Translations under genes and position numbers: made by a program
NCBI RefSeq assembly: GCF_001424425.1
Contig: NZ_LMPT01000022.1
Location: forward strand, 202,858 to 266,857
DNA length: 64,000 bases
Direction: 5' to 3'
Origin: Acidovorax sp. Leaf191
Lineage (GTDB): Bacteria; Pseudomonadota; Gammaproteobacteria; Burkholderiales; Burkholderiaceae_C
Shown here: piece after piece, positions 22,497 to 37,474 of the stretch
Layout of the letters: every line of letters starts with the position of its first letter
Numbering within the stretch: position 1 is the first letter of the stretch
Notes under the pieces: generated by a model
Seen by the model: the letters and a program-made list of their open reading frames with translations, nothing else
Told to the model about the DNA's origin: nothing
Databases searched by the model: none

Positions 22497-22547
22497 ATGT
22501 CCTTAAAACAGGACCAAACGACCCTAAATGTCTTATTGACAGGACAT
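22497..22547. promoter_or_regulatory. Two operator-like copies upstream of the GntR catabolic operon
   Basis: ATGTCCTTAAAACAGGACCA at 22497-22516 and ATGTCTTATTGACAGGACAT at 22528-22547 share ATGTC-T and ACAGGAC, and the second is a near-palindrome (ATGTC/GACAT). Their starts are 31 bp apart, about three helical turns, so a regulator could bind both on one DNA face. TTGACA at 22536-22541 within the second copy could be a -35 element. The region 22259-22496 between this and the divergent tetR shows no gene; a GC-rich ORF there is not convincing. Confidence 0.55.
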
Positions 22548-22562
22548 TACCGATGCTTGACG

Positions 22563-23372
22563 ATGAACCCCATGTCGCCCAAGCTGCCACTGCCCAAGTA
22601 CCACCAGATCTACCTGGTGCTGCGCGAGCAATTGCAGGAAGGCCACTTCGCCGCGGGCCTGCCGGGCGAGCTGGCGCTGATGGAGCAGTTCTCCGTGGCC
22701 CGCGTCACCGTGCGCCGCGCGCTGGAGCTGCTGCAGGGCGAAGGCCTGATCTCGCGCCAACCCGGCCGCGGCACCCGGCCCGTGCTGCAGCCCGACGCAG
22801 GGCAGGGCAGTGCGGATGGCTCCCCCCACAGCAACCGCGCGCAACTGACGGGCCTGCTCGAAAATCTGGTCAGCATGGGTCTGCGCACCTCGGTCAAGGT
22901 GCTCGATGTGGAGACGGTGACGGCCTCTCGCGCCGTGGCCGGTGCGCTGCAGATCGCCGTGGGCGACTCGGTGCAGAAGGCAGTGCGGGTGCGCAGCACG
23001 CGTGAAGGCCCTCTGTCGCACATCACCACCTACGTGCCCGCCGACATCGCCCGCCAGTTCGGCCGGCGCGAGCTGGCCCGCAAGCCCATCCTGGTGTTGC
23101 TGGAGGAATCCGGCGTGAAGGTGGGCCGCGCCCACCAGACGATTTCCGCCAAGCTGGCCGATGCCGTCGTCGCCCGCCACCTGGATGTGGCCGTGGGCTC
23201 GGCCCTGCTGGCGGTGCGCCGCCTGATCCTGGACGACCAGGAGCGGCCGGTGCAATGGCTGCATGGCCTGTACCGGCCGGACCGCTACGAATACGAGATG
23301 CAGCTGTCGCGCGTCGGCAGCATCGACGCCAAGGTCTGGGTCAGCAAAGAGCTGTCCGCCCAGTTCCACTGA
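22563..23372 (+). CDS. GntR/HutC-family regulator
   Basis: A 269-aa transcription factor. The N-terminal winged helix-turn-helix (YHQIYLVLREQL, then LMEQFSVARVTVRRALELLQGEGLISRQPGRGT) is followed by a UTRA-type ligand-binding domain (LLEESGVKVGRAHQTISAKLADA and the family-typical C-terminal VRRLILDDQERPVQWLHGLYRPDRY). ATG 22563 is chosen; ATG 22572 is possible, and the upstream open frame does not look coding. It lies 42 bases before the substrate-binding protein gene in the same direction, so it probably controls, and is part of, the catabolic operon through the two sites at 22497-22547. The inducer is likely the imported substrate or an early product. Confidence 0.9.
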   Translation: MNPMSPKLPLPKYHQIYLVLREQLQEGHFAAGLPGELALMEQFSVARVTVRRALELLQGEGLISRQPGRGTRPVLQPDAGQGSADGSPHSNRAQLTGLLENLVSMGLRTSVKVLDVETVTASRAVAGALQIAVGDSVQKAVRVRSTREGPLSHITTYVPADIARQFGRRELARKPILVLLEESGVKVGRAHQTISAKLADAVVARHLDVAVGSALLAVRRLILDDQERPVQWLHGLYRPDRYEYEMQLSRVGSIDAKVWVSKELSAQFH

Positions 23373-23414
23373 TCACAACGACCGCCCCCCGACCCCCCCC
23401 CAAGGAGAACGCCC

Positions 23415-24617
23415 ATGAGTAACCGCCGCCATTTCCTATCCCAGTCGGCTGCCGCCGCATCGGCCCTGGCCTTCCCCCTGGTGGGCGGGGCCCAGGCCAA
23501 GGCCATCAAGGTGGGTGTGCTGCACCCGGTGACGGGCGCGCTGGCGTACTCGGGCCAGCAGTGCCGCGAGGGCGCGATGATGGCCATCGAGGACATCAAC
23601 AAGGCCGGCGGCATCAAGTCCCTGGGCGGCGCCAAGCTCGAGGCCTTGCTGGGCGACGCGCAGTCGCAGCCCCAGGCCGGCGCGGCCGAGGTCGAGAAGA
23701 TGAACGAGGCGGGCGTGTCCGCCGTGGTCGGCGCCTTCGCGTCGGCCATCTGCCTGGCCACCACACAGGCCGCCGCCAAGTACAACCTGCCGCACATCGT
23801 GGACGTGGGCGTGGCCGACCAGATCGTGGAGCGGGGCCTCAAGAACACCTTCCGCTTCGGCCCCGGCTACAAGAAGTGCACCGAGACGGCCATGGCCAAC
23901 CTGCACGTGCTCAACACCGCCGCCGGCAAGCCAGCCAAGACGGTGATGATCATCCACGAGGAATCGCTGTTCGGCTCCGGTACGGCCCAATTGCTGTCGC
24001 GCGAGCTGCCGGGCTACGGCTACGAGGTCAAGGAAGTCGTCAAGCACGCCAACCCCACGCGCGACTTCAACAATATCGTGCTGCGCATGAAGGCGGTCAA
24101 CCCCGACATCGTGATCCCCGCCAACTACTACAACGAGTACGCGCTGCTGGTGCGCACCATGCAGCAGCAAAAGGTCACGCCCAAGGCCATCTACTCGGTG
24201 CTGGGCGGCGCCGCATCGAGCTACAAGTTCGTCAAGGAGTTTCCGGACGCAGCCAACGGCATCATCGACTGCAACCACTGGTTCAACCCCAAGGACAAGC
24301 GCGCGCAGGACCTCAAGAAGCGGGTGGAGGCCAAGGGCCTGTTCTTCAGCTACGAACTGTTCATGACCTACACGTCCATGTGGCTGCTGGCCGACGCGCT
24401 GGAGCGCGCCAAATCGATGGACCGCGCCGCCCTGATCGACGCGCTGGAAAAGAGCACGTTTGCCGACCACATCATGCCGTACGGCCCCACCAAGTTCGTC
24501 GCCGGACAGAACCAGGGAGCCCAGCCACTCATGACCCAGGTGCTGAACAAGGACATCAAGGTCATCATCCCGCGCGACTACCGCGAAGCAGACCCGCTCT
24601 TCCCCTTGAAGGCCTGA
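23415..24617 (+). CDS. Liv-type ABC transporter substrate-binding protein
   Basis: A 400-aa periplasmic binding protein of the branched-chain amino acid/amide (LivJ/UrtA-like, type 1 fold) class, with a signal ending near GAQA. Family segments are IKVGVLHPVTGALAYSG, AVVGAFASAICLATTQAA and FRFGPGYKKCTETAMANL. Strong ribosome-binding site AAGGAGA just upstream. First transport gene of the operon; it should deliver the ligand to the LivHM/GF proteins encoded next. Such proteins bind amino acids, amides, urea or aromatic acids, so the substrate must be judged from the enzymes: a small cyclic amide or imide is my inference. Confidence 0.9.
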   Translation: MSNRRHFLSQSAAAASALAFPLVGGAQAKAIKVGVLHPVTGALAYSGQQCREGAMMAIEDINKAGGIKSLGGAKLEALLGDAQSQPQAGAAEVEKMNEAGVSAVVGAFASAICLATTQAAAKYNLPHIVDVGVADQIVERGLKNTFRFGPGYKKCTETAMANLHVLNTAAGKPAKTVMIIHEESLFGSGTAQLLSRELPGYGYEVKEVVKHANPTRDFNNIVLRMKAVNPDIVIPANYYNEYALLVRTMQQQKVTPKAIYSVLGGAASSYKFVKEFPDAANGIIDCNHWFNPKDKRAQDLKKRVEAKGLFFSYELFMTYTSMWLLADALERAKSMDRAALIDALEKSTFADHIMPYGPTKFVAGQNQGAQPLMTQVLNKDIKVIIPRDYREADPLFPLKA

Positions 24618-24715: not shown

Positions 24716-25588
24716 ATGTTCGATCTCAGCATCCTCTTCCCCTCGGTCCTGAACGGCCTGACGACCGGCGCGGTCTACGCGCTGATCGCCCTGGGCCTGA
24801 CACTGATCTACGGCGTGCTGCACATCATCAACTTCGCGCACGGCGCGTCGCTGATGTTGGCGCTGTACGCCGTCTACCTGCTCAAGCAGCACTGGGGGAT
24901 CGACCCCTATCTGGCGCTGCCCATCGTGGTGCCGGGCATGTTCGCCCTGGGCTACGTGCTGCAGCGCGTGGTCATCAACCGCGCCAGCCACGGCAAGGAC
25001 GAGAACATCCTGCTCGTCACGCTGGGCATCTCCATCGTCATGGAGAACCTGGCGCTGCTGTTCTTCAAGTCGGACACGCGCACCATCGAGACCAGCTACA
25101 CCCTCACCACCGTGGCCATCGGCCCGGCGATGATCGCGCTGCCCAAGCTCGTGTCCTTTGCTGGCGCGCTGGTCGTATCGGGCCTGCTGCTGTGGATCGT
25201 GGGGCGCACCGACCTGGGCCGGGCCATCCGCGCGGTGGCGCGCGAGAAGCACGGCGCCAAGCTCATGGGCATCCATGTGGACCATGTCTACGCCATGAGC
25301 TTCGGGATCGGCCTGGCCTGCCTGGGCGCGGCCGCGTGCTTTCTGCTGCCGGCCTACTACGTCAACCCGCAGGTGGGCAGCGGCTTCGTGCTGGTGGCCT
25401 TCACCATCGTGGTGCTCGGCGGCATGGGCAGTTTTGCGGGCGCGCTGGTCGGCGGGCTGCTGATCGGCGTGGTGGAGTCGCTGGGCGGCCTGTACCTGGG
25501 CGAATCGCTGGGGCAGATCGGCATCTTCGCCATCTTTATCGCCGTGCTGCTGTTTCGCCCGCAGGGCCTGTTTGGAGCCCGTCAATGA
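24716..25588 (+). CDS. livH: Liv-type ABC permease, LivH-like
   Basis: A 290-aa inner-membrane permease of the branched-chain amino acid class with about eight hydrophobic segments. Typical motifs are GLTTGAVYALIALGLTLIYGVLHIINFAHG near the start and, after the cytoplasmic loop with RAIRAVAREKHGAKLMG, VVLGGMGSFAGALVGGLLIG. It forms the pore with the LivM-like protein; its stop overlaps that gene's ATG. The 98 bases between the binding-protein gene and this one hold no clear promoter or terminator. Confidence 0.93.
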   Translation: MFDLSILFPSVLNGLTTGAVYALIALGLTLIYGVLHIINFAHGASLMLALYAVYLLKQHWGIDPYLALPIVVPGMFALGYVLQRVVINRASHGKDENILLVTLGISIVMENLALLFFKSDTRTIETSYTLTTVAIGPAMIALPKLVSFAGALVVSGLLLWIVGRTDLGRAIRAVAREKHGAKLMGIHVDHVYAMSFGIGLACLGAAACFLLPAYYVNPQVGSGFVLVAFTIVVLGGMGSFAGALVGGLLIGVVESLGGLYLGESLGQIGIFAIFIAVLLFRPQGLFGARQ

Positions 25589-26556
25589 AGCAGCTCGCAT
25601 CCATCGCGCTCTTCGCGCTGGCCGTGTCGGCCATCACCTTCGCGTCCGACTCCGGCGTGCTGCTGAACTTCATCATGATGGCCCTGTATGCCGCCTTGCT
25701 GGCGCAGGCCTGGAACATCCTGGGCGGCTTCGGCGGGCAGTTCTCGTTCGGCCATGCGCTGTTCTTCGGCACGGGCGCCTACATCCAGGCCATTGCGCAG
25801 ATGCAGGGCGGCATCAACGCCTGGGTGGCGCTGCCCATGGCCGTGGGCGGCAGCGCGCTGGTGGGGCTGTTCGTGGGCGGGCTGTCGTTCCGCTACGGGC
25901 TCAAGGGATCGTACTTCGCGCTGGTCACCCTGGCTTTTGCCGAGGTGTTTCGCATCCTGGCGCTGTCGGTGCCCTTCACCGGCGCGGGCGTGGGCCTGAT
26001 GCTGCCGCTCAAGGAATCGGTGGCCAACATGCAGTTCGGCTCGCGCAAAGGCTATGTCTTCCTGATCCTGTCGCTGGTCACGCTGGCGCTGCTGGCCAGC
26101 TGGTGGCTCAAGAACTCTCGCTTCGGTGCCTGGCTGCAGGCTGTGCGCGACAACGAAGACGCGGCCCGCGCCATCGGCGTCAATCCGTTCACCGTGAAGA
26201 TGGGCGCCATCGCGCTGTCGGGCGGCTTCATGGGGGCGGCAGGGGCGTTCTATGTGCAGGTGTTCCAGTACATCGACCCGGGCATCGCCTACGGCTCGGT
26301 GACCTCGGTGGAAGCCCTGGTGGCGGCCATCGTGGGCGGCATCGGCACCATCTGGGGGCCAGTGCTGGGCGCCTTGGTGCTGCACGTGCTGGCCGACCTC
26401 ACGCGCAACCTGTTCGGCCAACTGCCCGGCATCAACATGGTGATCTACGGGGTGGTGCTGGTGGTCATCGTCATGTTCCTGCCGCGCGGCATCGCAGGCC
26501 TGGGACAGTCGGTGGTGCATCTGTGGAAACGTTCGGGAGGCCGCCATGGCCAATGA
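25585..26556 (+). CDS. livM: Liv-type ABC permease, LivM-like
   Basis: A 323-aa inner-membrane permease, partner of the LivH-like protein. It carries the class motifs NILGGFGGQFSFGHALFFGTGAY, the EAA-like loop RDNEDAARAIGVN and IVGGIGTIWGPVLGALVL. ATG 25585 sits in an ATGA overlap with the upstream gene; the longer frame upstream is only a shadow. It overlaps the next gene by 11 bases, indicating tight coupling. Confidence 0.93.
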   Translation: MKQLASIALFALAVSAITFASDSGVLLNFIMMALYAALLAQAWNILGGFGGQFSFGHALFFGTGAYIQAIAQMQGGINAWVALPMAVGGSALVGLFVGGLSFRYGLKGSYFALVTLAFAEVFRILALSVPFTGAGVGLMLPLKESVANMQFGSRKGYVFLILSLVTLALLASWWLKNSRFGAWLQAVRDNEDAARAIGVNPFTVKMGAIALSGGFMGAAGAFYVQVFQYIDPGIAYGSVTSVEALVAAIVGGIGTIWGPVLGALVLHVLADLTRNLFGQLPGINMVIYGVVLVVIVMFLPRGIAGLGQSVVHLWKRSGGRHGQ

Positions 26557-27307
26557 CCTGCTGACTCTGACGGGGCTGGGCAAGTCCTTCGGCGGCCTGA
26601 AGGCCGTGCAGAACGTGAGCCTCACCGTACCCGAAGGCTCGCTCACCGCGCTGATCGGCCCCAATGGCGCCGGCAAGACCACGTTGTTCGCGCTGATGAC
26701 CGGCTTCGTGAAGCCTGACGCGGGCACGGTGCAGTTCGCCGGGCGCGACATCACCGGCCAGGCGCCGCACCTCAATGCCCGGCTGGGCATGGCGCGCACC
26801 TTCCAGATCGTGCAGCCCTTTGCCGCCCAGACCGTGCGCGAGAACATCGCCGTGGGCGCCCATCTGCACGAGCCGCGCCGCGCGGCGGCGCTGGCGCTGG
26901 CCACCGAGGTGGCGGCGCGCGTGGGCTTGACGGCGCAGTTGGACAAACCCGCATCCGACCTGACCGTGGCCGGGCGCAAGCGGTTGGAGCTGGCGCGGGC
27001 GCTGGCCACCCGGCCGCGCCTTTTGCTGCTGGACGAAGTGCTGGCCGGCCTCAACCCCCAGGAGATTGCCGAGATGATTCCCGTGGTGCGTGGCATTGCC
27101 CAGGGCGGCGTGACGGTGCTGATGATCGAGCACGTGATGCAGGCCGTGATGAACCTGGCCGAGCACGTGTGGGTGCTGGCGCAGGGCCAGTTGATCGCCG
27201 AGGGCAGCCCGGGCGTGGTGACGTCCGATGAGCGCGTGATCGAGGCGTATCTCGGCCACGGCGCCGCAGCCCGCCTGCGCGCGGCTGCTGCGAAGGAGGC
27301 CGCATGA
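26546..27307 (+). CDS. livG: Liv-type ABC ATPase, LivG-like
   Basis: A 253-aa ATP-binding subunit. Walker A is GPNGAGKTTLF, the signature region reads LTVAGRKRLELARALA in place of LSGGQ, as is common in LivG proteins, and Walker B is LLLLDEVLAGLNPQE with an H-loop IEHVM. The long insertion after Walker A with RTFQIVQPF is typical of LivG. It powers uptake together with the LivF-like protein. Confidence 0.93.
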   Translation: MANDLLTLTGLGKSFGGLKAVQNVSLTVPEGSLTALIGPNGAGKTTLFALMTGFVKPDAGTVQFAGRDITGQAPHLNARLGMARTFQIVQPFAAQTVRENIAVGAHLHEPRRAAALALATEVAARVGLTAQLDKPASDLTVAGRKRLELARALATRPRLLLLDEVLAGLNPQEIAEMIPVVRGIAQGGVTVLMIEHVMQAVMNLAEHVWVLAQGQLIAEGSPGVVTSDERVIEAYLGHGAAARLRAAAAKEAA

Positions 27308-28071
27308 GCACCGCCGTTTCTTCTTCGCCACCGTCCACTCCATCGCCCACGCCATCCGCAGCCGCACCGTTGCTCGACATTGCCGGCCTGCGCGGCGGTT
27401 ATGGCCGTGTGGAAGTGCTGCGCGGGGTGGACCTGCAGGTGAACCCGGGAGAAACCGTGGCCTTGCTGGGCAGCAACGGCGCGGGCAAGTCCACGCTCAA
27501 CAACGTGGTCTGCGGCATCTACCCGGCCTGGGCCGGGCGCGTGGCCTTTGGCGGCGCCGACCTGAGCGGTGCGCACTACACCGAGGTCGTCAAGGCCGGG
27601 CTGATCCAGGTGCCCGAGGGGCGCAAGATCTTCCCGAACCTGAGCGTGCTGGAAAACCTGTCGCTCGGCAGCTTCTCGCGCGCCCGGGAGCGCCGCGCCG
27701 AGAACATCGACAAGGTGTTCGCCACCTTCCCGCGGCTGAAGGAGCGCACCGCACAGCTGGCCGGCACCATGAGCGGGGGCGAGCAGCAGATGCTGGCCAT
27801 CGGCCGCGGCCTGATGGCCGAGCCGCGCCTGTTGATCCTGGACGAGCCCTCGCTGGGCCTGTCGCCCCTGCTGGTCGAAGAGATGTTCGGCCTGATCCGC
27901 CAGTTGCGCTCCACGGGCCTGGCGGTGCTGCTGGTCGAACAGAACGTGGGCCAGTCGCTGGAGATCGCCGACCGTGCCTACGTGATGGAAAACGGGAGCA
28001 TCCGCTTTTCCGGCGCGCCCGACGAACTGCTGCGCAGCGACGAACTGCGCCGGGCCTATCTGGGCCTTTGA
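27304..28071 (+). CDS. livF: Liv-type ABC ATPase, LivF-like
   Basis: A 255-aa ATP-binding subunit with Walker A GSNGAGKSTLNNV, signature MSGGEQQMLAIGRGL, Walker B LLILDEPSLGLSPLL and the LivF-type QVPEGRKIFPNLSVLENL segment. A Ser/Pro-rich leader of about 20 residues precedes the domain. ATG 27304 overlaps the end of the LivG-like gene by four bases (ATGA). It completes the five-part importer. Confidence 0.93.
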   Translation: MSTAVSSSPPSTPSPTPSAAAPLLDIAGLRGGYGRVEVLRGVDLQVNPGETVALLGSNGAGKSTLNNVVCGIYPAWAGRVAFGGADLSGAHYTEVVKAGLIQVPEGRKIFPNLSVLENLSLGSFSRARERRAENIDKVFATFPRLKERTAQLAGTMSGGEQQMLAIGRGLMAEPRLLILDEPSLGLSPLLVEEMFGLIRQLRSTGLAVLLVEQNVGQSLEIADRAYVMENGSIRFSGAPDELLRSDELRRAYLGL

Positions 28072-28086
28072 GAAGGAGACAACCAC

Positions 28087-29046
28087 ATGACCATTCCACG
28101 CCGAAAACTGCTGCTGGCGTTGCCCGCCGTGCTTCCGCTCGGGCGGGCCCTGGCCCAGGGCAATGCCCCCATCCGCATCCTGGTGGGCGCGCCTGCCGGT
28201 GGCTCCACCGACACGCTGGCGCGCAACTTGGCCACCGAGATGGGTCGCCAGCTCGGCCGCACCGTGGTGGTGGAAAACCGCCCGGGCGCGGGCGGCAACA
28301 TCGCGGCAGACGCGGTGGCCAAGGCCGCGCCGGACGGCAACACGCTGCTGATGAGCTTCACGAGCCACGCGATCAATGCCAGCCTGTACCCGTCGCTGCC
28401 GTTCGACCCCATCAAGGACTTCACGCCGCTGACCTGCGTGGCGACCTCGCCGTCCATCCTGGTGGCCAACCCCGCGGTGCCGGCCAAGGATGTGCGCGAG
28501 CTGATCGCACTGGCCAAGGCCAGGCCGGGCCAGCTCAACTTCGCCATCGGCGCCGTGGGCTCGTCGCTGCACCTGGCAGGCGACGCTTTCAAGATGCAGT
28601 CGGGCGCGTACATCGTCAACATCCCGTACCGCGGCACCGCGCCCGCGCTGCAGGACGTGCTGGCCGGGCAGGTGGAGCTGATGTTCGCCGCCGTGGGCAA
28701 CGCCCAGGCGCAGATCCGCGCAGGCAAGCTCAAGGCGCTGGGCGTGACCAGCGCCAAGCGGCTGCCGGCCTTTCCGGACGTGCCGGCCATCGCCGAGGTG
28801 CTGCCCGGCTACGAGTCGAGCGCCTGGTTCGGCTTGTTCGGCCCCGGCAACATGAACCCAGAGCTCGCCAAGAAGTTGAGCGACGCGGCCCGCCAGGCGA
28901 TTGCCACGCCCGAGGTCAAAAAACGCCTGGAGACCGAAGGCGCCGTGCCCGTAGGCAACAGCCCTGAGGAATTCGCGCGCTTCGTGCAGGCCGAGATCCC
29001 GCGCTGGGCCAAGGTCGTGCGTTTTGCCGGAGCCAAGCCCGAATGA
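28087..29046 (+). CDS. TctC/Bug-family extracytoplasmic receptor
   Basis: A 319-aa periplasmic solute receptor with an N-terminal signal ending near RALAQ and the Bug-family signatures PIRILVGAPAGGSTDTLARNLA, VENRPGAGGNIAADAVAKAAPDG and FDPIKDFTPLT. Bug proteins usually bind carboxylates through a conserved loop. No TctA/TctB membrane genes are adjacent, as is common for Bug paralogs in betaproteobacteria, so it may work as a sensor or with a distant transporter. Ribosome-binding site GAAGGAGA upstream. It lies within the catabolic operon, 15 bases after the LivF-like gene and overlapping the next. Confidence 0.92.
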   Translation: MTIPRRKLLLALPAVLPLGRALAQGNAPIRILVGAPAGGSTDTLARNLATEMGRQLGRTVVVENRPGAGGNIAADAVAKAAPDGNTLLMSFTSHAINASLYPSLPFDPIKDFTPLTCVATSPSILVANPAVPAKDVRELIALAKARPGQLNFAIGAVGSSLHLAGDAFKMQSGAYIVNIPYRGTAPALQDVLAGQVELMFAAVGNAQAQIRAGKLKALGVTSAKRLPAFPDVPAIAEVLPGYESSAWFGLFGPGNMNPELAKKLSDAARQAIATPEVKKRLETEGAVPVGNSPEEFARFVQAEIPRWAKVVRFAGAKPE

Positions 29047-30320
29047 CCACCGCCCCCAGTACCCTGGCGCAAAAGCTGGTGGCCCGCGCCAGCGGCCACA
29101 CCGCCGTCACGCCCGGGGAGATCGTCAACTGCCAGGTCGACCTGGCCATGTTCCACGACTCGTCCGGCCCCCGCCGGCTCAAGCCCATGCTCGACGAGCT
29201 GGGCGCGAGCATCTGGGACAAGTCGCGCGTGGTGCTGGTCATGGACCACTACCTGCCCGAGCGCGATGACGAATCGCGCCGCATTGTCCGCATCGCCCGC
29301 GAATGGGCCAAGGAGCAGGCGCTGCCCCACGTCTACGACGGCCAGGGCATCTGCCACGTGGTGGTGCCGCAGCACGGCCACATCCGCCCGGGCATGTTCT
29401 GCGTGGGGGGCGACTCGCACTCGCCCACGGGCGGGGCGTTCGGTGCCTACATGTTCGGCATCGGCAGCACCGAGATGCTGGGCGTGGTGGTCACCGGCGA
29501 GATCTGGCTGCGCGTGCCCCACACCCTGCAGATGCACTGGACCGGGCGGCTGGCCGCTGGCGTCACCGCCAAGGACATGATGCTGCACATGGTCGGGCGC
29601 TTCGGCATGAACGGCGGCCAGTACCAGGCTGTGGAGTTTGCCGGGCCTGCAGTACAGGCCCTGTCGATGCAGGAGCGCATGACCCTGTCCAACATGAGCG
29701 CCGAGCTGGGCGCGCAGGCCGGCCTGATCGCCCCCGACGCGACCACGCACGACTGGCTGGCCGTCCACGGCGTGCCCGAGGCCGACCTGCAAGGCCTGGA
29801 CGCCTGGGTGACCGACCCCGGCGCGCCGCTCACCCGCCACGATTTCAATGCCGACACCCTGGCGCCCCAGGTGGCGGCGCCCCACAGCCCGGCCAACACG
29901 GCCGCCGTGGACCAGCATGCCGGCACGCGCATCGACGTGGCCTACATCGGCGCGTGTACCGGCGCCAAACTCGACGACCTGCGCGCCGCCGCCAGCGTGC
30001 TGCGCGGCCACCGCGTGGCCCGCGGCGTGCGCCTGATGGTGGCCCCGGCCAGCCAGCAGGACCAGGCCGCAGCCCGCGCCGAAGGCGTGCTGCAGGTGCT
30101 GGAGGACGCGGGGGCCGAGCTGTTCCCCACCACCTGCGGCGCCTGCGCCGGCTATGGCGATACGGTGGGCGACGGCACCACCGTCATCTCCAGCACGGCG
30201 CGCAACTTCAAGGGCCGCATGGGCTCGGCCACGGCGCAGGTGTACCTGGCCTCGCCCTACACCGTGGCCGCTTCGGCCTTGCAGGGGCACATTGCCGACC
30301 CGCGCGAGGTGCTGGCATGA
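29043..30320 (+). CDS. Aconitase-family hydratase, large subunit (LeuC/DmdA-like)
   Basis: A 425-aa [4Fe-4S] hydro-lyase large subunit of the isopropylmalate isomerase/homoaconitase/dimethylmaleate hydratase type. The three cluster cysteines are visible: C305 in IGACTGAKLDDL and C365/C368 in TTCGACAGYGD. The GGDSHSPTGGAFGAYMFGIGSTEM segment is diagnostic. It should add or move water across a C=C bond of a small di- or tricarboxylate. Leucine synthesis is unlikely as the role, because no leuA/leuB lies nearby and the gene sits in a catabolic operon between an uptake receptor and ring-opening enzymes. Its stop overlaps the small-subunit ATG. Confidence 0.9.
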   Translation: MTTAPSTLAQKLVARASGHTAVTPGEIVNCQVDLAMFHDSSGPRRLKPMLDELGASIWDKSRVVLVMDHYLPERDDESRRIVRIAREWAKEQALPHVYDGQGICHVVVPQHGHIRPGMFCVGGDSHSPTGGAFGAYMFGIGSTEMLGVVVTGEIWLRVPHTLQMHWTGRLAAGVTAKDMMLHMVGRFGMNGGQYQAVEFAGPAVQALSMQERMTLSNMSAELGAQAGLIAPDATTHDWLAVHGVPEADLQGLDAWVTDPGAPLTRHDFNADTLAPQVAAPHSPANTAAVDQHAGTRIDVAYIGACTGAKLDDLRAAASVLRGHRVARGVRLMVAPASQQDQAAARAEGVLQVLEDAGAELFPTTCGACAGYGDTVGDGTTVISSTARNFKGRMGSATAQVYLASPYTVAASALQGHIADPREVLA

Positions 30321-30820
30321 GCGCCGCACAACACAGGGTCTGGAAGCTGGGCGCCGACACCGACACGGATGTGCTGGCCCCCGGCCACGCGATGAAGCAC
30401 GGTATCGACGTGCTGGCCCGCCACTGCCTCGAATCCGTACGCCTGGACTTCGTGGGCGGCGTGCGCCAGGGCGATGTGATCGTGGCCGGCCCCAACTTCG
30501 GCATCGGTTCGTCGCGCGAGCAGGCGGCTGCCGTGCTGGTGCGGCTGGGTGTTGTGGCGGTCATTGCACCGTCGTTCAGCGGCCTGTACTTTCGCAACGC
30601 CTTCAACCTGGGGTTGCTGCTGCTGACTTGCCCCGAGGCGGACAAGATGGCCGAGGGTGAGCAGGTCGCCCTGGACTGGCAGGCCCCCGCCGTGATCACT
30701 GCGGATGGCACGCGCCTGGCGTGCGATCCGATTCCCCCGTTTCTCATGGACATGGTGCGCGCCGGCGGTTTGCTGAACCAGCTGCGCGCCCGATTTGGCA
30801 AGGAGGCCGTCAATGGCTGA
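30317..30820 (+). CDS. Aconitase-family hydratase, small subunit (LeuD/DmdB-like)
   Basis: A 167-aa swivelling-domain subunit with the conserved GPNFGIGSSREQAAAVLVRLGV and the segment IAPSFSGLYFRNAFNLGLLLL, the length expected for LeuD-type partners. It binds the large subunit to complete the active site. ATG 30317 is in an ATGA overlap with the large subunit; its 3' end overlaps hyuB by eight bases. Together the two subunits fit a hydratase acting on a maleate- or aconitate-like acid. Confidence 0.9.
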   Translation: MSAAQHRVWKLGADTDTDVLAPGHAMKHGIDVLARHCLESVRLDFVGGVRQGDVIVAGPNFGIGSSREQAAAVLVRLGVVAVIAPSFSGLYFRNAFNLGLLLLTCPEADKMAEGEQVALDWQAPAVITADGTRLACDPIPPFLMDMVRAGGLLNQLRARFGKEAVNG

Positions 30821-32528
30821 CAACAAGGTAGCGACAGCAACATCATCGATGGACCCGGTCACCCTGGCCGTGCTGCGCGGGCGGCTGGAGCAGGTGGCCG
30901 ATGAAATGGATGCCACGCTGTACCGCAGCGCATTCAACCCCATCATCGCCGAGGCGCACGACGCCTGCCATGGCCTGTACGACGCGGTCAGCGGCGACAC
31001 CCTGGTGCAGGGCAAGTCGGGCCTGCCGGTGTTCGTGGGCGCCATGGCCTTTGCGGTGCGCGCGGCCATGCGCATCGCCGCAGAGCGTGGCGGCATGGCG
31101 CAGGGCGACACCTGGCTGTTCAACGACCCGTACGAGGGCGGCACGCACGCCAACGACTTCAAGCTGGTGCGGCCGTTCTTTCGCAACGGCCAGCTGTACT
31201 GCTTTTTGGCGTCTGCAGCGCACTGGCACGACGTGGGCGGCAATGTGCCCGGCAACTACAACCCCGCCGCCACCGAGTGCTGGCAGGAGGCCGTGCAGAT
31301 TCCGCCCGTGCGCATCGTGCGCGGCGGTGCGCTGGACGAGGACGTGCTGGCCATCCTGAAAGCCAACACCCGCCTGCCCGACAGCCTGTGGGGCGACCTG
31401 AACGGACAGCTCTCCGCGCTGGACCTGGGCGAGCGCCGCCTGAACGACCTGCTGGACCAGTATGGCGATGCCGTGGTGCTGCAGGCCATGGGCGAGCTGC
31501 GCACGCGTGCCGTCAAGCTCATGCGCTCGCACATCGCGGCGCTGCCCGATGGGCGCTACAGCTTCAGCGACATGCTGGACAACGACGGCGTGAAGGACGA
31601 GGCGCTGACCATCGCCCTGGACATGACGGTGGCAGGCGACCGCCTCACGCTCGATTTTTCGCGCACCTCGCCGCAGTGCGCCGGGCCGGTGAACATCTCG
31701 CGGGCCACGGCCATCGCGGCCTGCTACGTGGCCTTGAAGCACCTGTTCCCGGACGTGCCCGCCAATGCCGGCGTGCTGGATGCGGTGGACTTCGTGCTGC
31801 CGGACGGCCTGGTGATCAGCGCCGCACGCCCACGCCCGGTGGGTGGCTACACCGAGACCATTTTGCGCATGATCGACGTGATCTTCAGCGCCACGGCCCT
31901 GGCCGCGCCCGAGCGCGCCATGGCCCAGGCCTACGGCACCATCAATGCGCTGTCCATCGCCGGACACCGCACGGACCCCGCGCGCAAAGGCCAACGCTGG
32001 GTGATGTTCAGCTTCTTCGGCGGCGGCCACGGCGGGCATTCCGATGGCGACGGCATGAGCCACGGCAATGCACCCATCTCCACGGCGACCATCCCGCCGC
32101 TCGAAATACTGGAGGCTGCCTACCCCGTGCGCTTCACACAGTGGGCGCTGCGCCCCGGCTCTGGCGGCGACGGCCAGCACCGCGGTGGCCTGGGCGCCAT
32201 CTACGAGATCGAGCTGCTGGAGCAAGACGCCGAAGTCTTCATCTTCGGCGAGCGCGGCAAGGCCGCACCGCAGGGCATCGCCGGAGGCGAAGAGGCCGCG
32301 ATGAACGTCTTCAGCTACGAGAACGCGGGCGAGTGGAAGACGCCGACCATGCGCTCCAAGATGATCGGCATCCAGCTGAAAAAAGGCGAGCGTGTGCGGC
32401 TGGAAACGCCCGGCGGCGGCGGCTACGGGGCCCCGTCGGCGCGGGCCGCAGCAGCGCGCCAGAGCGACGAGGCGATGGGTTATGTGGTGGCGGACAACAG
32501 CGCAGCAGCAATGAAAGGCGCAGCATGA
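30813..32528 (+). CDS. hyuB: Hydantoinase B/oxoprolinase-family subunit
   Basis: A 571-aa HyuB-family subunit. With HyuA this family performs ATP-dependent opening of five-membered cyclic amides such as 5-oxoproline or N-methylhydantoin (established for oxoprolinase and N-methylhydantoinase). Visible family segments are DPVTLAVLRGRLEQVADEM near the start, TWLFNDPYEGGTHANDF, HWHDVGGNVPG, and the Gly-rich FFGGGHGGHSDGDG and RPGSGGDGQHRGG. ATG 30813 follows AGGAGG by six bases; an upstream start at 30795 would lie before that site. It overlaps its neighbours on both sides. Confidence 0.92.
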   Translation: MADNKVATATSSMDPVTLAVLRGRLEQVADEMDATLYRSAFNPIIAEAHDACHGLYDAVSGDTLVQGKSGLPVFVGAMAFAVRAAMRIAAERGGMAQGDTWLFNDPYEGGTHANDFKLVRPFFRNGQLYCFLASAAHWHDVGGNVPGNYNPAATECWQEAVQIPPVRIVRGGALDEDVLAILKANTRLPDSLWGDLNGQLSALDLGERRLNDLLDQYGDAVVLQAMGELRTRAVKLMRSHIAALPDGRYSFSDMLDNDGVKDEALTIALDMTVAGDRLTLDFSRTSPQCAGPVNISRATAIAACYVALKHLFPDVPANAGVLDAVDFVLPDGLVISAARPRPVGGYTETILRMIDVIFSATALAAPERAMAQAYGTINALSIAGHRTDPARKGQRWVMFSFFGGGHGGHSDGDGMSHGNAPISTATIPPLEILEAAYPVRFTQWALRPGSGGDGQHRGGLGAIYEIELLEQDAEVFIFGERGKAAPQGIAGGEEAAMNVFSYENAGEWKTPTMRSKMIGIQLKKGERVRLETPGGGGYGAPSARAAAARQSDEAMGYVVADNSAAAMKGAA

Positions 32529-34567
32529 GCGGCAAGGCTTCCTTTGTGGTGGGTGTGGACGTGGGTGGTACGTTCACTGACCTTTTTGTGCTGGACGAGT
32601 CCGACGGCAGTGCTCGCATCGTCAAGGTGCCCTCGACCCGGGGGGAAGAAGCACGCGGCTTCATGAACGGCGTGGCGCGGGTGGCGGATTCGGCCTCGGC
32701 CATCGCCACCATCGTGCACGGCACCACCGTGGGCACCAATGCGCTGCTGGAGCGCAAGGTGGCTCGCACCGGCATCATCACCACGCGCGGCTTTCGCGAT
32801 GTGCTGGAGATGCGCCGCCGCGACCGCCCGCAGACCTGGGGCCTGCGCGGCAGCTTCGAGCCCATCGTGCCGCGCGACCTGCGCTTGGAGGTGGACGAGC
32901 GCGTGCTGGCCGATGGATCGGTGCACACCCCGGTCGATCTGGACCAGGTGAAAGCCCAGGCCAAGGCCTTGCTGGACGCAGGCTGCGAGGCGGTCTGCGT
33001 GTTCTTCATCAACACCTACGCCAACCCGGCCAACGAGCAGGCGGCCGTGGCTGCCGTGCGCAGCCTCTGGCCCAACCCGCACGTGACCGCGGCCAGCGAG
33101 GTGCTGCCCGAGATCCGCGAGTTCGAGCGCTGCTCCACCGCCACGCTGAATGCCGCCCTGCAGCCTGTGGTGGGCAGCTACCTGGAGCGGCTGGAGGGCG
33201 ACCTGCGCACCCAAGGCTTTGGCGGCGAGCTGCTCATCGTGCAGAGCAATGGCGGCGTGATGTCGCGCCAGACGGCGTGCGACGTGCCGGTGCGCACCGC
33301 ACTGTCGGGCCCGGCGGCGGGCGTGATCGCCTGCGCGGCCATCGCTCGGGCGGCGGGGTTCCCCGATGCGATCACCGGCGACATGGGCGGCACCTCGTTC
33401 GACGTGTCGCTGGTGGCGGGTGGCGAGGCGGCCCTGGCCGCTCAGACCGCCATCGAGTTCGGCATGGTCGTGCGCTCGCCCATGATCCAGATCGAGACCA
33501 TCGGCGCGGGCGGCGGCTCCATTGCGTCGGTGGACGCCAGCGGCATGCTGCAGGTGGGCCCCGAGTCGGCCGGCAGCGTGCCCGGCCCCGCGTGTTACGG
33601 GCGCGGCAACACCCGCCCCACGGTGACCGATGCCAACGTGCTGCTGGGCCGCATCGCGGCCGACCGGCCGCTGGGCGGCGGGCTGCTGGCCGCCATGGAT
33701 GCGGCCAAGTCCCGCGACGCCATCGACACCCACGTGGCCCAGCCCCTGGGCCTGGACGTGATGGCCGCAGCCGAAGCCATCCTGACGGTGGCCAACGCCA
33801 AGATGGCCGGCGCCGTGCGGGTGGTCTCCATCGAGCGCGGGCACGACCCGCGCCAGTTCGCCTACATGCCGTTCGGCGGTGGCGGCGCTTTGCACGTGTG
33901 CGCCATGATGCGCGAGGTGGGCGTGGGCACCGGCATCGTGCCGCGCTACCCCGGCGTCACCTCGGCCCTGGGCTGCGTGATGGCCGACATGCGCCACGAC
34001 GCGGTGCAGACCCTGAACAAACCCCTGGCCGAGCTGGACGTGGCCGACCTGCGCGAGCGCGTGCAGGCCCTGTCGGCCGCCTGCCAGCAGCGCCTGGACT
34101 CGGCGGGCGTGCAGTTCGTGCAGGTGCAGGAAATCATTGCGCTGGACATGCTCTACGCCGGGCAGACGCACACCGTGCAGGTGCCGCTGGCGGCGCAGGC
34201 ACTGAGCCGCGAAGGCATCCAGGCCGCTTTCGAGGCCGCCTACCGCGCTGCCTTCGGCCGGGTGCTCGACGGCATTGCCGTGCGGGTGATGAACCTGCGC
34301 TACGCCCGCGTGGGCGTGCGGCCCAAGTTCGACCTCACGGTGCTGGCACCGCAGTCGACCACGCTGAACACCTCGCTGGGTGTGCAGCGCGTGTTCCATG
34401 CCGGCCAGTGGTGGGACGCGGCGCGCCACGCGCGGCTGGACCTGCCGGTGGGCGCCCGCATCGATGGCCCCGCCATCCTGGAGCAGCCCGACACCACGGT
34501 GTGGCTGGAGCCGGGCTTTCATGCCACGGTGGACACGCTGGGCAACCTGCTGGTGCGTGCAGCATGA
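32525..34567 (+). CDS. hyuA: Hydantoinase A/oxoprolinase-family ATPase subunit
   Basis: A 680-aa HyuA-family subunit of the actin-like ATPase fold that phosphorylates the cyclic amide for hydrolysis. Nucleotide-binding motifs are GVDVGGTFTDLFVLDE at the N-terminus, IVHGTTVGTNALLERK, GDMGGTSFDVSLV and FGGGGALHVCAMM. Near full family length. ATG 32525 overlaps the hyuB stop; the very long upstream frame is a shadow of hyuB. It forms the ring-opening enzyme with HyuB, and the next gene encodes a possible amide hydrolase, an order reminiscent of N-methylhydantoin catabolism. Confidence 0.92.
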   Translation: MSGKASFVVGVDVGGTFTDLFVLDESDGSARIVKVPSTRGEEARGFMNGVARVADSASAIATIVHGTTVGTNALLERKVARTGIITTRGFRDVLEMRRRDRPQTWGLRGSFEPIVPRDLRLEVDERVLADGSVHTPVDLDQVKAQAKALLDAGCEAVCVFFINTYANPANEQAAVAAVRSLWPNPHVTAASEVLPEIREFERCSTATLNAALQPVVGSYLERLEGDLRTQGFGGELLIVQSNGGVMSRQTACDVPVRTALSGPAAGVIACAAIARAAGFPDAITGDMGGTSFDVSLVAGGEAALAAQTAIEFGMVVRSPMIQIETIGAGGGSIASVDASGMLQVGPESAGSVPGPACYGRGNTRPTVTDANVLLGRIAADRPLGGGLLAAMDAAKSRDAIDTHVAQPLGLDVMAAAEAILTVANAKMAGAVRVVSIERGHDPRQFAYMPFGGGGALHVCAMMREVGVGTGIVPRYPGVTSALGCVMADMRHDAVQTLNKPLAELDVADLRERVQALSAACQQRLDSAGVQFVQVQEIIALDMLYAGQTHTVQVPLAAQALSREGIQAAFEAAYRAAFGRVLDGIAVRVMNLRYARVGVRPKFDLTVLAPQSTTLNTSLGVQRVFHAGQWWDAARHARLDLPVGARIDGPAILEQPDTTVWLEPGFHATVDTLGNLLVRAA

Positions 34568-35202
34568 GCAGCAGCGCCACAACGTTGTCCCCGCTGAACC
34601 TGCGCCGCACGGCACTGGTCATCATCGACCTGCAGGACGACTTCCTCGCACCCGAGGGCGCCTATGCCCGGGGCGGTGCGGTGAGCGCTGCCGCCCAGGC
34701 CCTGCCGCCGCGCGTGGCCGCCGTAGCCCAGGCGCTGAAGGCCGCGGGCGGCATGGTGGTGGGCAGCCAGTTCACCCTGTGGCCCGATGCGCAGGGCGAA
34801 CCCATGATCTCGCCCCACCTCAAGACCCTGCGCCCGTTCCTGCGGCGCGGCGACTTCGCGCCGGGCAGCGCGGGCCAGGCCATGGTGTCCGACATTGCGC
34901 CCTGGGTCGATGTGGCGGTGTGCAAGGTGGCGTATTCGGCTTTCTTCAACACCCAGCTCGACTGGGTGCTGCGCCGCGCGGGCATCGACACCGTGGCGGT
35001 GTGCGGCATCGTCACCAACGGCGGCGTGGCCAGCACGGTGCGCGACGCCCACATGCGCGACTACCGCACCCTGGTGCTGTCCGACGGTTGTGCCGCCTTC
35101 CGCCAGGAGGTGCACGACACCGCGCTGGCGGACATGGCTACCGTGGCGCAGGTGCTGACCTGCAACGACTTCACCGCCGCATTGGCTGCAGGCACGCCAT
35201 GA
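34564..35202 (+). CDS. Isochorismatase-fold hydrolase lacking the usual cysteine
   Basis: A 212-aa protein of the isochorismatase/cysteine-hydrolase superfamily, which includes N-carbamoylsarcosine amidohydrolase, nicotinamidase and maleamate amidohydrolase. D22 (VIIDLQDDF) and K121 (CKVAYSAF) of the triad are present. The position normally holding the nucleophile in the pattern T-x-x-C-V reads TNGGV, so G154 replaces cysteine. True isochorismatases also lack this cysteine, so the protein may use water directly or act on another bond. Its place after hyuBA suggests action on the opened ring. ATGA overlaps join it to both neighbours. Confidence 0.88.
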   Translation: MSSSATTLSPLNLRRTALVIIDLQDDFLAPEGAYARGGAVSAAAQALPPRVAAVAQALKAAGGMVVGSQFTLWPDAQGEPMISPHLKTLRPFLRRGDFAPGSAGQAMVSDIAPWVDVAVCKVAYSAFFNTQLDWVLRRAGIDTVAVCGIVTNGGVASTVRDAHMRDYRTLVLSDGCAAFRQEVHDTALADMATVAQVLTCNDFTAALAAGTP

Positions 35203-36605
35203 GCAGCACGCTGCCGACCATCCGCCGCGCCGACAGCATGCCGGCGGCCGCGCGGGACAACCATGTGCCTGTCGCCATCGTGGGCGGTGGCGCCTGCGGC
35301 CTGACCGCGGCGCTGATGCTGCACGACCTGGGTGTGGACTGCGCCGTGCTGGAGCGCGACGGCACTCCCACGGGCTCATCAGCGCTGTCCTCAGGCTTCA
35401 TCCCGGCACCGGGCACGCAAGTGCAAAAGGACCTGAGCATTGCGGACAGCGCCGAACGTTTTGCCGCCGACATCACCGCCAAGGCCAAGGGCAGGGCAGC
35501 GCCGCAACTGGTGCAGGCCTACGCCCGCGCCATCGGCCCCGCGCTCGATGCGCTGCAGGACCGCCACGGCCTGGAGTGGCAGGTGCTCGATGGATTCTTG
35601 TACCCCGGCCACAGCGTGCGGCGCATGCACGCCGTGCCCGAGAAAACCGGCGTGGGCCTGATGGGCCGGCTGGCCAACGCGGTGGCGGCCGCCGACATTC
35701 CCCTGGTCACCGACGCCGCCGTGCGCGAGCTGTGGGCCGACGACACCGGCCTGCTGCTGGGCGTGGGCTACGAGCGGCCGGACGGCACACTGGAGCACCT
35801 GTCGTGCGACACCGTCATCCTGGCCTGCAACGGCTTCGGCGGCAACGCCGCCATGGTGCGCGAACTGTTGCCCGAAATGCGCGACGCCCTGTTCGCCGGC
35901 CACACCGGCAACGACGGCAGCGCCATCGCCTGGGGCCGCGCACTGGGCGCGTGCCTGGCGGACCTGGGTGGCTACCAGGGCCACGGCTCGTGGGCCATAC
36001 CGCAGGGCGCGCTGATCTCGTGGGCGCTGATGATGGAAGGCGGCATGCAGGTCAACGCGCAGGGCCGTCGCTTTCATGACGAGACACAGGGCTACTCCGA
36101 GGCCTCGGTGCATGTGCTGGCCCAGCCGGGCGGCGTGGCCTGGAACGTGTTCGACGCGCCCATTCTGGCCCTGGCGCGCGGCTTTCCGGACTTCGTCGAC
36201 GCCGAAGCCGCGGGCGCGGTGAAGCACTGCGACAGCGTGCAGGCGCTGGCGGCGTTGATAGGCTGCGACGACACCGCGCTGGCGGCCACGCTGGCAGGGC
36301 AGGGCCCGTACCCCCGCCCGGGCACGCGAGCGCTGCAGGCGCCGTTTTGCGCCGTCAAGGTCACCGGCGCGTTGTTCCATACCCAGGGCGGGCTCGACAT
36401 CGACGCGCAGTGCCGCGTGCTCGACACCCAGGGCCGCCCGTTTCCCAACCTGCTGGCCGCAGGCGGCGCGGCGCGTGGTGTCTCGGGCGATGCCGTCTGG
36501 GGTTACCTCTCGGGCAACGGCCTGCTGAGCGCCGTGGCCGGCGGCTACCTGGCGGCCTACACCGCCGCCCATCTGCTTCGTCCCCCTACGGGTTCCAAAC
36601 CATGA
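35199..36605 (+). CDS. FAD-dependent oxidoreductase, fumarate reductase-like
   Basis: A 468-aa flavoprotein. The N-terminal Rossmann motif VAIVGGGACGLTAALML and ERD bind the FAD adenosine part. The middle carries CDTVILACNGFGGN, as in the FRD/SDH/3-ketosteroid dehydrogenase group, and the C-terminus has the second FAD motif LLAAGGAARGVSGDAVWGYLSGNGLLSA. It probably reduces or dehydrogenates a C-C bond next to a carbonyl or carboxylate. No signal peptide or heme motif, so it is cytosolic. Joined by a four-base overlap to both neighbours. Its step in the pathway is unknown; making or removing the double bond used by the hydratase would fit. Confidence 0.88.
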   Translation: MSSTLPTIRRADSMPAAARDNHVPVAIVGGGACGLTAALMLHDLGVDCAVLERDGTPTGSSALSSGFIPAPGTQVQKDLSIADSAERFAADITAKAKGRAAPQLVQAYARAIGPALDALQDRHGLEWQVLDGFLYPGHSVRRMHAVPEKTGVGLMGRLANAVAAADIPLVTDAAVRELWADDTGLLLGVGYERPDGTLEHLSCDTVILACNGFGGNAAMVRELLPEMRDALFAGHTGNDGSAIAWGRALGACLADLGGYQGHGSWAIPQGALISWALMMEGGMQVNAQGRRFHDETQGYSEASVHVLAQPGGVAWNVFDAPILALARGFPDFVDAEAAGAVKHCDSVQALAALIGCDDTALAATLAGQGPYPRPGTRALQAPFCAVKVTGALFHTQGGLDIDAQCRVLDTQGRPFPNLLAAGGAARGVSGDAVWGYLSGNGLLSAVAGGYLAAYTAAHLLRPPTGSKP

Positions 36606-37474
36606 CCGCCATGACTGCCATGACCCTGCACGAACGGCTGCAGCAGCCGAACATCCTTCTGGCCCCAGGCATCTACGACGCGTTGAGCGCCCTGGTGGCC
36701 GAGCAGGCCGGCTTCGAGGCGCTGTACCTCTCCGGCGCCTCCATCGCCTACACACGGCTGGGCCGCTCCGACGTGGGCCTGACCACCTACACCGAGGTGG
36801 AAGACACCCTGGCGCGCATCACCGAGCGGGTGCGCAAGCCCGTCATCGTGGATGCCGACACCGGCTTTGGCAACGCGCTGAACGTGCAGCGCACGGTGCG
36901 CGGCTTCGAGCGTGCGGGCGCGGCCATGGTGCAGATCGAGGACCAGGGCTTTCCCAAACGCTGCGGCCACCTGGACGGCAAGACCGTGGTGCCCGCCGCC
37001 GAGATGTGCGGCAAGCTGCGCGCCGCGCTCGACGCCCGCCGCGACGCCAGCATCCTGATCCTGGCGCGCACGGACGCGCTGGCGGTCGAGGGCATCGAGG
37101 CCGCGTTCGACCGGGCCGAGCGCTACCTGGAGTGCGGTGTGGATGCGCTCTTCATCGAAGCCCTGCGCACGCCCGAACAGATGGACGCCGCCTGCCAGCG
37201 TTTTGCCCACCGCATCCCCTTGCTGGCCAACATGGTCGAGGGCGGCAAGACCCCGGTGCAAAGCGCGCAGGAGCTGGGCCAGCGCGGTTTTCGCATCGCC
37301 ATCTTCCCTGGCGGCACGGCGCGGGCGGTGGCCCACACCCTGCAGGGCTACTACGCCAGCCTGCACACGCACCAGACCACGGCGCCTTTCAAGGAGCGCA
37401 TGCTGGACTTCGACGGGCTCAACGCGCTGATCGGCACGCCCGAGCTGATGGAGCAGGGCAGACAGTACGAATGA
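36602..37474 (+). CDS. Isocitrate lyase/PEP mutase-family lyase
   Basis: A 290-aa TIM-barrel enzyme of the ICL/PEPM superfamily. The metal-binding VDADTGFG (D84, D86), QIEDQ (E113) and the flexible-loop motif PKRCGH with C121 are present; that cysteine is the catalytic acid/base of C-C lyases such as 2-methylisocitrate lyase and 2,3-dimethylmalate lyase, and is generally absent from PEP mutases. It therefore probably cleaves a 2-hydroxy acid to an oxoacid plus a short carboxylate. Last gene of the operon; the GC-rich hairpin after it fits transcription end. The N-terminus has three in-frame ATGs (36602, 36611, 36620); the first overlaps the previous stop. Confidence 0.9.
   Translation: MTAMTAMTLHERLQQPNILLAPGIYDALSALVAEQAGFEALYLSGASIAYTRLGRSDVGLTTYTEVEDTLARITERVRKPVIVDADTGFGNALNVQRTVRGFERAGAAMVQIEDQGFPKRCGHLDGKTVVPAAEMCGKLRAALDARRDASILILARTDALAVEGIEAAFDRAERYLECGVDALFIEALRTPEQMDAACQRFAHRIPLLANMVEGGKTPVQSAQELGQRGFRIAIFPGGTARAVAHTLQGYYASLHTHQTTAPFKERMLDFDGLNALIGTPELMEQGRQYE

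Follow-up and report, generated by a model that had tools for sequence, protein, structure and literature searches.

A conserved operon of Acidovorax sp. Leaf191 that may degrade a cyclic imide, with hematinic acid as candidate substrate

Gene content and conservation of the operon

The window analyzed in this study, a stretch of 64,000 nucleotides from Acidovorax sp. Leaf191 (RefSeq assembly GCF_001424425.1, 5.87 Mb in 24 contigs; contig NZ_LMPT01000022.1, positions 202,858 to 266,857 of the forward strand), contains fourteen plus-strand genes in the order gntR-livKHMGF-bug-leuC-leuD-hyuB-hyuA-ich-fad-icl, which extend from about position 22566 to 37474 (Table 1). They code for a regulator, a Liv-type transporter, a Bug receptor, an aconitase-type hydratase (LeuCD), a HyuBA-type ring opener, an isochorismatase-fold protein (ICH), a flavin adenine dinucleotide (FAD)-binding flavoprotein and a C-C lyase of the isocitrate lyase (ICL)/phosphoenolpyruvate (PEP) mutase family. 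From comparison with related clusters, the substrate of this operon probably belongs to the class of cyclic amides. Gaps are present after gntR (42 bp), livK (98 bp) and livF (15 bp), and all remaining junctions are overlaps, eight of them of 4 bp, one of 8 bp and one of 11 bp. Pfam and NCBIfam scans covering ten of the encoded proteins returned the families named in a previous reading of the window made from the sequence alone (hereafter the sequence-only reading), and its description of fourteen tightly packed same-strand genes was confirmed. LivH, LivM, LivG and LivF were named from their translations and from conserved synteny.

The closest named relative of the window LeuC, with 97% identity, is that of Acidovorax sp. 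sic0104. The conserved co-occurrence of the operon genes, for which the sequence-only reading had suggested a neighborhood search, was found in several genera: all fourteen genes recur at 86–100% identity in four Acidovorax loci (L045–L048), at 73–91% in Thiobacillus (L055) and Polaromonas (L057), and at 68–88% in Variovorax (L058). An Achromobacter locus (L122) contains thirteen of the fourteen genes, lacking bug, at 65–84% identity.

Table 1. Features of the operon, with positions in the window and the basis of each assignment.
Feature	Position	Strand	Basis
Inverted repeat AATGTC-N10-GACATT, probable GntR operator	22527..22548	+	conserved 5′ of gntR
GntR/UTRA (HutC-type) regulator	22566..23372	+	PF07702 109 bits, PF00392 55 bits
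LivK-type substrate-binding protein	23415..24617	+	PF13458 174 bits
LivH permease	24716..25588	+	translation, conserved synteny
LivM permease	25585..26556	+	start located in sequence, conserved synteny
LivG ATPase	26546..27307	+	translation, conserved synteny
LivF ATPase	27304..28071	+	translation, conserved synteny
Bug/TctC receptor	28087..29046	+	PF03401 256 bits
Aconitase-superfamily hydratase, large subunit (HacA/LeuC type)	29043..30320	+	TIGR01343 411 bits, cut-off 386
Hydratase, small subunit (LeuD/DmdB type)	30317..30820	+	TIGR02087 145 bits, cut-off 109
HyuB subunit, ATP-dependent cyclic-amide hydrolase	30813..32528	+	PF02538 557 bits
HyuA subunit	32525..34567	+	PF01968 278 bits; motifs DVGGTFTD, DMGGT, GSVPGP
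Isochorismatase-fold hydrolase without nucleophilic Cys (Gly154)	34564..35202	+	PF00857 128 bits
FAD_binding_2 flavoprotein	35199..36605	+	PF00890 154 bits
ICL/PEP-mutase-family C-C lyase with KRCGH	36602..37474	+	PF13714 150 bits; prpB 284 bits, cut-off 354

Exchange of ring openers around the hydratase and lyase

Related clusters were collected by LeuC alone. In total, 94 loci were mapped, 14 from a draw of 300 genomes of the order and 80 being the best 80 of 555 matches on genome contigs; some species may be represented in both sets, and four plasmid records were added to give 98 loci. Within the draw, LeuC orthologues reached down to 56% identity, with the next group starting at 44%. Classes were counted on the 69 loci of at least 14 kb, the 29 shorter ones being excluded, and a gene was counted at 45% identity over half of the query length. 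Since the reference sequences for genes absent from the window came from the counted loci themselves (L038, L042, L054, L056, L062, L072, L089, L098, L120), this count is descriptive and does not represent an independent test.

HyuBA was found in 33 of the 69 clusters, a PuuE-type hydrolase in 18, an AHS hydrolase in four and none of these in 14. Thirty members of the HyuBA class also contain genes for the isochorismatase-fold protein, the flavoprotein and the lyase, eight of them together with an MmgE/PrpD-like gene; one has the isochorismatase-fold and lyase genes without the flavoprotein gene, and two are cut short or lack all three. The PuuE-type class divides into twelve clusters of a b kind, all with flavoprotein, lyase and PrpD genes, and six of an a/c kind with a second isochorismatase gene, four of which carry the flavoprotein and lyase genes. 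All four AHS clusters contain both of the latter. Among the clusters without an opener, eight show the lyase gene only, three the isochorismatase-fold and lyase genes, one the flavoprotein and lyase genes, and two neither. The AHS gene occupies the position of hyuBA and ich; the PuuE-type genes are found at other sites of the cluster and are mostly divergently oriented. AHS proteins match models of allantoinase, dihydropyrimidinase and hydantoin-propionate hydrolase, and the PuuE-type enzymes match PuuE allantoinase, all below cut-off. The proposed imidase HxnM of Aspergillus (PMC9304392) is a precedent for the opening of an imide by a relative of PuuE. HyuBA, AHS and PuuE-type enzymes represent three unrelated types of cyclic-amide hydrolase around the LeuCD and lyase core.

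As a control, 20 loci around LeuC relatives of 36–44% identity were picked by hand from the draw, one per genome (six of them shorter than 15 kb). Only one contained a ring opener at any identity, a PuuE-like match of 26%, and none did at 45% or more, in comparison to 48 of 60 orthologue loci of at least 18 kb. An ICL-family lyase was present near 11 of the 20 control loci. Because the pair of LeuCD and lyase is this widespread, it is the ring opener that marks this group of clusters. On a quick LeuC tree, several branches of which are weak or long, the ring-opener label requires at least ten changes (the minimum possible being three and the shuffled mean 27). The simplest reading of this distribution would be a single substrate with interchangeable ring openers. 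The general scheme of the sequence-only reading, in which a cyclic amide or imide is opened, hydrated and cleaved, is supported by the exchange of openers around the core and its absence from the controls, whereas its details are not supported. Separation of HyuBA from hydratase and lyase, which it had regarded as speaking against the scheme, does occur in the literal sense, HyuBA being absent from 36 of the 69 clusters. Of these 36, however, 22 hold another opener, and 14 hold none. A locus in a distant gammaproteobacterium (L139), in which a flavoprotein gene, a PuuE-type pair, an isochorismatase gene, a lyase gene (52% identity) and LeuCD genes (35–38%) lie beside one gntR, appears to be an independently assembled version of this gene set. 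The LeuC of this locus (13305–14743) is split over two reading frames, representing either a broken gene or a sequence error.

The inverted repeat 5′ of gntR is the probable operator of GntR: its TGTC..GACA form was found in all 36 sequences with a GntR of at least 70% identity (window included), as compared to 16 of 720 random windows. These 36 sequences comprise the window, 28 HyuBA loci, four AHS loci and three loci that are too short to tell or lack an opener. Due to the position of this conserved repeat, we judge the ATG at 22566 to be the preferable start of gntR instead of position 22497. A consensus scan of positions 22400–22700 revealed no sigma-70 promoter; the repeat overlaps a TTGACA at 22536–22541, which is possibly a −35 box. 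In three of the AHS loci (L054, L073, L121), LivK is 87–88% identical to that of the window. The best relative of the window LivK in the PDB is 8wch (122 bits), a match that is not informative with respect to the ligand.

Active-site residues of the encoded enzymes

HyuB contains an Asp-His-Asp-His site, with D50, H112, D115 and H137 as probable metal ligands by motif and spacing relative to CapB (PMC8453981), and HyuA retains the three ATP motifs listed in Table 1. The scores against the caprolactamase equivalogs (285 and 509 bits) do not reach the cut-offs of 1000. Members of the HyuBA family are all said to act on cyclic amides (PMC8453981). Because ring openers are exchanged around the LeuCD and lyase core, and because the operator is shared, the ring opened by HyuBA is very probably that of a cyclic amide.

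For the hydratase, the Fe-S cysteines C305, C365 and C368 of LeuC are invariant in eight aligned sequences. Both subunits pass the cut-offs of their subfamilies (TIGR01343 and TIGR02087) and do not reach the LeuC and LeuD equivalogs. In the loop of LeuD, 88 of 92 sequences including the window contain Lys and the other four Gln, at a position which we take to be Arg in homoaconitase (YLRT) and Val in isopropylmalate isomerase (YLVY); the loops of the control LeuD sequences could be placed in part only. This Lys is compatible with a third carboxylate in the substrate. As proof of such a group it was set aside, the residue being suggestive only.

The catalytic cysteine of the lyase, previously read from the window, is indeed present within the motif KRCGH, which is conserved in all 71 aligned lyases including that of the window. 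The protein remains below the prpB equivalog cut-off. Its AlphaFold model, of moderate quality (predicted local distance difference test, pLDDT, 78.6), has PrpB as best fold match at 37% identity, and the fold search only restated the family. The window residues I234-F235-P236 correspond to what is presumably the PrpB pattern, in which a small aliphatic residue stands two positions ahead of Pro236, and would fit pyruvate as one of the lyase products.

In the isochorismatase-fold protein, Asp and Lys of the Asp-Lys-Cys triad are kept and the Cys position is occupied by Gly, both in the window and in 35 of 35 loci, as well as in 120 of 120 homologues among the matches listed. A function as Cys amidase was set aside, and the amidohydrolase role suggested in the sequence-only reading is not supported, as the nucleophilic Cys is replaced by Gly in every homologue read. 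True isochorismatases also have Gly at this position. The AlphaFold model is likewise of moderate quality (pLDDT 75.9), and the fold search only restated the family. A Cys motif is present in the second isochorismatase encoded by the PuuE a/c clusters, namely in 10 of the 11 loci examined, with L141 lying outside the pattern. An isochorismatase gene is missing from the AHS and PuuE-b clusters, and therefore the second amide bond must be handled otherwise in these clusters. Disubstituted maleamic acids are able to expel the amine unaided, via the anhydride. As a guess, the Cys-less protein might speed up this expulsion or the hydrolysis of the anhydride.

The nearest relatives of the flavoprotein are urocanate reductase and flavocytochrome c (Fcc3). 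At the positions which we take to be R402 and R544 of Fcc3, it carries Tyr in 62 of 62 and in 60 of 62 sequences (two gapped), respectively. The arginines characteristic of fumarate reductases are absent, so that an assignment as a fumarate-reductase-type enzyme of a diacid is not supported, and a function as succinate-type dehydrogenase of the free diacid was set aside. With Tyr at both positions, a neutral ring is the more likely substrate of the flavoprotein, as opposed to a free dicarboxylate. The protein is probably an α,β-dehydrogenase.

A tentative route for a substituted imide and its alternatives

Hints to the fate of the product come from the surroundings of several clusters. The conjugative plasmid p1 of Burkholderia plantarii contains, between IS6 and IS481 transposase genes, a self-contained island (L145, 5125–23671) with genes for an MFS transporter (nearest to the aromatic-acid family, below cut-off), two PuuE-type proteins and an isochorismatase, together with the series gntR-leuC-leuD-FAD-lyase-porin-electron-transfer flavoprotein (ETF) β-“FAD-binding protein”-acyl-coenzyme A (CoA) dehydrogenase-CaiB. 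By position, the “FAD-binding protein” is ETF α. The acyl-CoA dehydrogenase gene of the island (gcdH, for glutaryl-CoA dehydrogenase) is 70% identical to that of L042, whose enzyme scores 628 bits to solved glutaryl-CoA dehydrogenases, and the CaiB protein reaches 542 bits to succinate-glutarate CoA-transferase (cut-off 750). The tail of the Caballeronia hypogeia locus (L120) is the same as that of the p1 island. In Polaromonas (L073), the only gcdH of the genome flanks the cluster on the opposite strand, and in three loci of one genus (L042–L044) gcdH adjoins the isochorismatase and PuuE genes opposite to LeuCD. Overall, gcdH stands beside the cluster in six of 98 loci from three or four lineages, being the only copy in four genomes, as compared to about 0.3 expected by a hand estimate for the 1.7 Mb examined at one copy per ~5 Mb. 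The gene is present in 14 of 16 genomes or records searched, six times beside the cluster and eight times elsewhere or, for one genome, unplaced. Since ETF, gcdH and CaiB genes accompany these clusters, glutarate is likely to be one of the lyase products in at least some members.

Based on these observations, we tentatively favor a five-membered cyclic imide with substituents as the compound degraded, hematinic acid and/or its saturated form being the most likely candidate, although we hold this reading with less than even confidence. A cyclic imide of some kind is a probable substrate. The imide would be taken up by the Liv transporter and opened by HyuBA at the expense of ATP. The resulting half-amide would lose ammonia, perhaps aided by the Cys-less isochorismatase-fold protein, and in the case of a saturated ring the flavoprotein would introduce the C=C bond. 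Hydration of the alkene triacid by LeuCD would then give a homologue of 2-methylisocitrate, which the lyase would cleave to pyruvate and glutarate, the latter being further metabolized through glutaryl-CoA. Such a route would resemble the last steps of the methylcitrate cycle, extended by one CH2. Pyruvate (C3) and glutarate (C5) together correspond to a triacid of eight carbons (C8). If this acid bears a methyl side group, its imide would be hematinic acid, i.e., methyl-(2-carboxyethyl)maleimide, which originates from haem, bilins and chlorophyll upon their oxidation. That hematinic acid itself is the substrate is a possibility, if a somewhat more doubtful one. The same applies to the idea of a dedicated, partly plasmid-borne mineralization of hematinic acid, in which any of the three hydrolases would open the imide, and hydration and cleavage would follow in analogy to the methylcitrate cycle but with a longer chain. 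Leaves and lake sediments are reported to contain hematinic acid (PMC7318184), which is also a reported product of ChuS acting on haem (PMC11442138).

Several observations weigh against this proposal. There is no recognised Cys amidase in the window operon. No gcdH is present beside the cluster in 92 of the 98 loci, and in the window host the single gcdH is located on another contig, adjoining a CaiB-like gene. In L042–L044, the stretches examined (20, 17 and 12 kb, respectively) revealed no lyase or flavoprotein of the operon type. Haem or bilin genes were not noticed in the clusters, no search being aimed at them. With 14 of 69 clusters lacking an opener, and four Pigmentiphaga clusters carrying the isochorismatase-fold gene but not HyuBA, the core may act on more than one substrate. 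Lys in the loop is also found in many ordinary bacterial LeuD proteins, so that this residue is not decisive. The profile scores of the lyase lie close together (CPEP mutase 217, petal death protein 215, PrpB 214 and 2,3-dimethylmalate lyase 185 bits), and the residues governing substrate selectivity in the ICL/PEP-mutase family are described as an open question (PMC11982470).

In the alternative closest to the proposed route, the same series of reactions would act on an imide lacking a third carboxylate, either a dialkylmaleimide or an alkylsuccinimide (e.g., methyl ethyl maleimide from pigments or dimethylmaleimide). The lyase would then yield an oxoacid together with a short monocarboxylic acid, as happens in nicotinate fermentation along its dimethylmaleate branch. 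The gene logic is unchanged in this reading, LeuD is a member of the LeuD/DmdB subfamily, the lyase is related to 2,3-dimethylmalate lyase, and maleimides are breakdown products of pigments. However, it leaves the gcdH genes beside six of 98 loci, plasmid island included, unexplained and does not account for the Lys or Gln in the small-subunit loop. We regard it as rather doubtful, and the plain dimethylmaleate-type product of the sequence-only reading became less likely with the glutaryl-CoA genes found in some clusters.

A six-membered glutarimide or other imide derived from a pyridine (nicotinate- or citrazinate-like) appears unlikely as substrate; it would lead to an aconitate-like acid, or glutarate would arise directly from glutarimide. 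The known counterpart is the fungal nicotinate route, in which the metabolites of mutants led to the proposal that the PuuE-related imidase HxnM of Aspergillus opens 3-hydroxypiperidine-2,6-dione, a cyclic imide (PMC9304392). A monooxygenase nearest to PnpA and HspB beside Pigmentiphaga clusters, and the gcdH of L042–L044 adjoining PuuE-type genes with no lyase nearby, would be in line with such a substrate. Nevertheless, a glutarimide needs no dedicated hydratase and C-C lyase, and no pyridine hydroxylase is among the ten operon proteins scanned.

Opening of a hydantoin-like ring by HyuBA, followed by an isochorismatase-fold amidohydrolase as in the breakdown of N-methylhydantoin, is improbable. 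Although all three ring-opener families include hydantoin or allantoin hydrolases by name (in the case of HyuAB, presumably), the isochorismatase-fold protein lacks the nucleophilic Cys, no transaminase or deaminase is among the proteins scanned, and a hydantoin yields no alkene diacid for LeuCD. That HyuBA is a relative of acetone or acetophenone carboxylase and the operon degrades a ketone or an aromatic compound is highly improbable. HyuBA does match acetophenone carboxylase models weakly (113 and 299 bits, cut-offs 1500), but the caprolactamase models score higher and cyclic-amide hydrolases replace HyuBA in 22 sister clusters.

Compared to characterized systems, the operon shares the aconitase-type hydratase and the ICL-family lyase with the methylcitrate cycle, but it contains no citrate synthase, has a ring-opening front end and a lyase below the prpB cut-off, and its predicted acid would be C8 instead of C7. 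The dimethylmaleate branch of nicotinate fermentation, presumably that of Eubacterium barkeri, likewise employs a LeuCD-type hydratase and an ICL-family lyase after opening of a cyclic amide. In contrast, no B12 mutase, methylitaconate isomerase or enamidase is found among the ten scanned operon proteins (the other four being read as LivHMGF), HyuBA stands in place of these enzymes, and the clusters show signs of a third carboxylate. Caprolactamase CapAB, hydantoinase HyuAB and 5-oxoprolinase have the metal tetrad and ATP motifs kept in the window HyuBA, which nonetheless stays under the cut-offs and is linked to a hydratase and a lyase. In the N-methylhydantoin pathway the second enzyme is, we assume, a Cys amidohydrolase, unlike the Cys-less protein of the window. 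The fungal imidase HxnM and amidase HxnN, as presented in PMC9304392, resemble the sister clusters in the PuuE-related cyclic-imide hydrolase but convert a glutarimide to 2-hydroxyglutarate with no hydratase or lyase, and the window has HyuBA. The module from glutarate through glutaryl-CoA to crotonyl-CoA (CaiB-type transferase, GcdH, ETF) is found beside some clusters and not in the window operon.

Neither the gene set nor genes for bacterial hematinic acid catabolism were described among the matches listed from open-licence full-text literature, subscription journals being mostly outside this scope. Synthesis and degradation of chlorophyll are on the order of 10^12 kg per year (PMC7318184), and no bacterial route for its one-ring end products was found in the open-licence literature searched. 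If hematinic acid is indeed the substrate, the operon and its sister clusters would provide candidate genes for this degradation step and a marker for lake and soil genomes, and a single reaction series would unite HyuBA, PuuE-like and AHS hydrolases, LeuCD, ICL-family lyases, FAD proteins and the Bug and Liv receptors. Even with another side chain, the exchange of three unrelated cyclic-amide hydrolases would be a clean tool for assignment.

Some genes associated with the clusters are unexplained by the proposed pathway, namely the MmgE/PrpD-like genes, the AtuA-like, DUF4387 and SDR genes 5′ of gntR in L072, L089, L111 and others (mostly freshwater Comamonadaceae), and a thiolase-like gene with a 3-oxoacid CoA-transferase pair inserted after leuD in L118 (3239–6213). 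The PnpA/HspB-like monooxygenase is accompanied by an arylmalonate-decarboxylase-like gene in L062, L074, L075 and L107; L068 shows only the latter gene and L038 only the monooxygenase.

In the window, an MsrA gene named from its translation (37556–38110, plus strand) directly follows the lyase gene. Because only five of the 94 mapped loci (L045, L053, L073, L091, L118) have a match at this position, it was not counted as part of the operon; in L056 and L057 the match lies 5′ of gntR. Genes for an RND efflux pump and a membrane-fusion protein and a TetR-like reading, also named from translations, are located divergently 5′ of the operon (17139–22444, minus strand). A tRNA-Ala(agc) called by ARAGORN at 10347–10438 (minus strand) is probably false, with no Rfam family reaching its gathering score anywhere in the window. 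A patch of low guanine-cytosine content at 2001–4000 (0.55 vs. ~0.68) contains two lipoprotein-like open reading frames (1989–2750 and 2747–3403).

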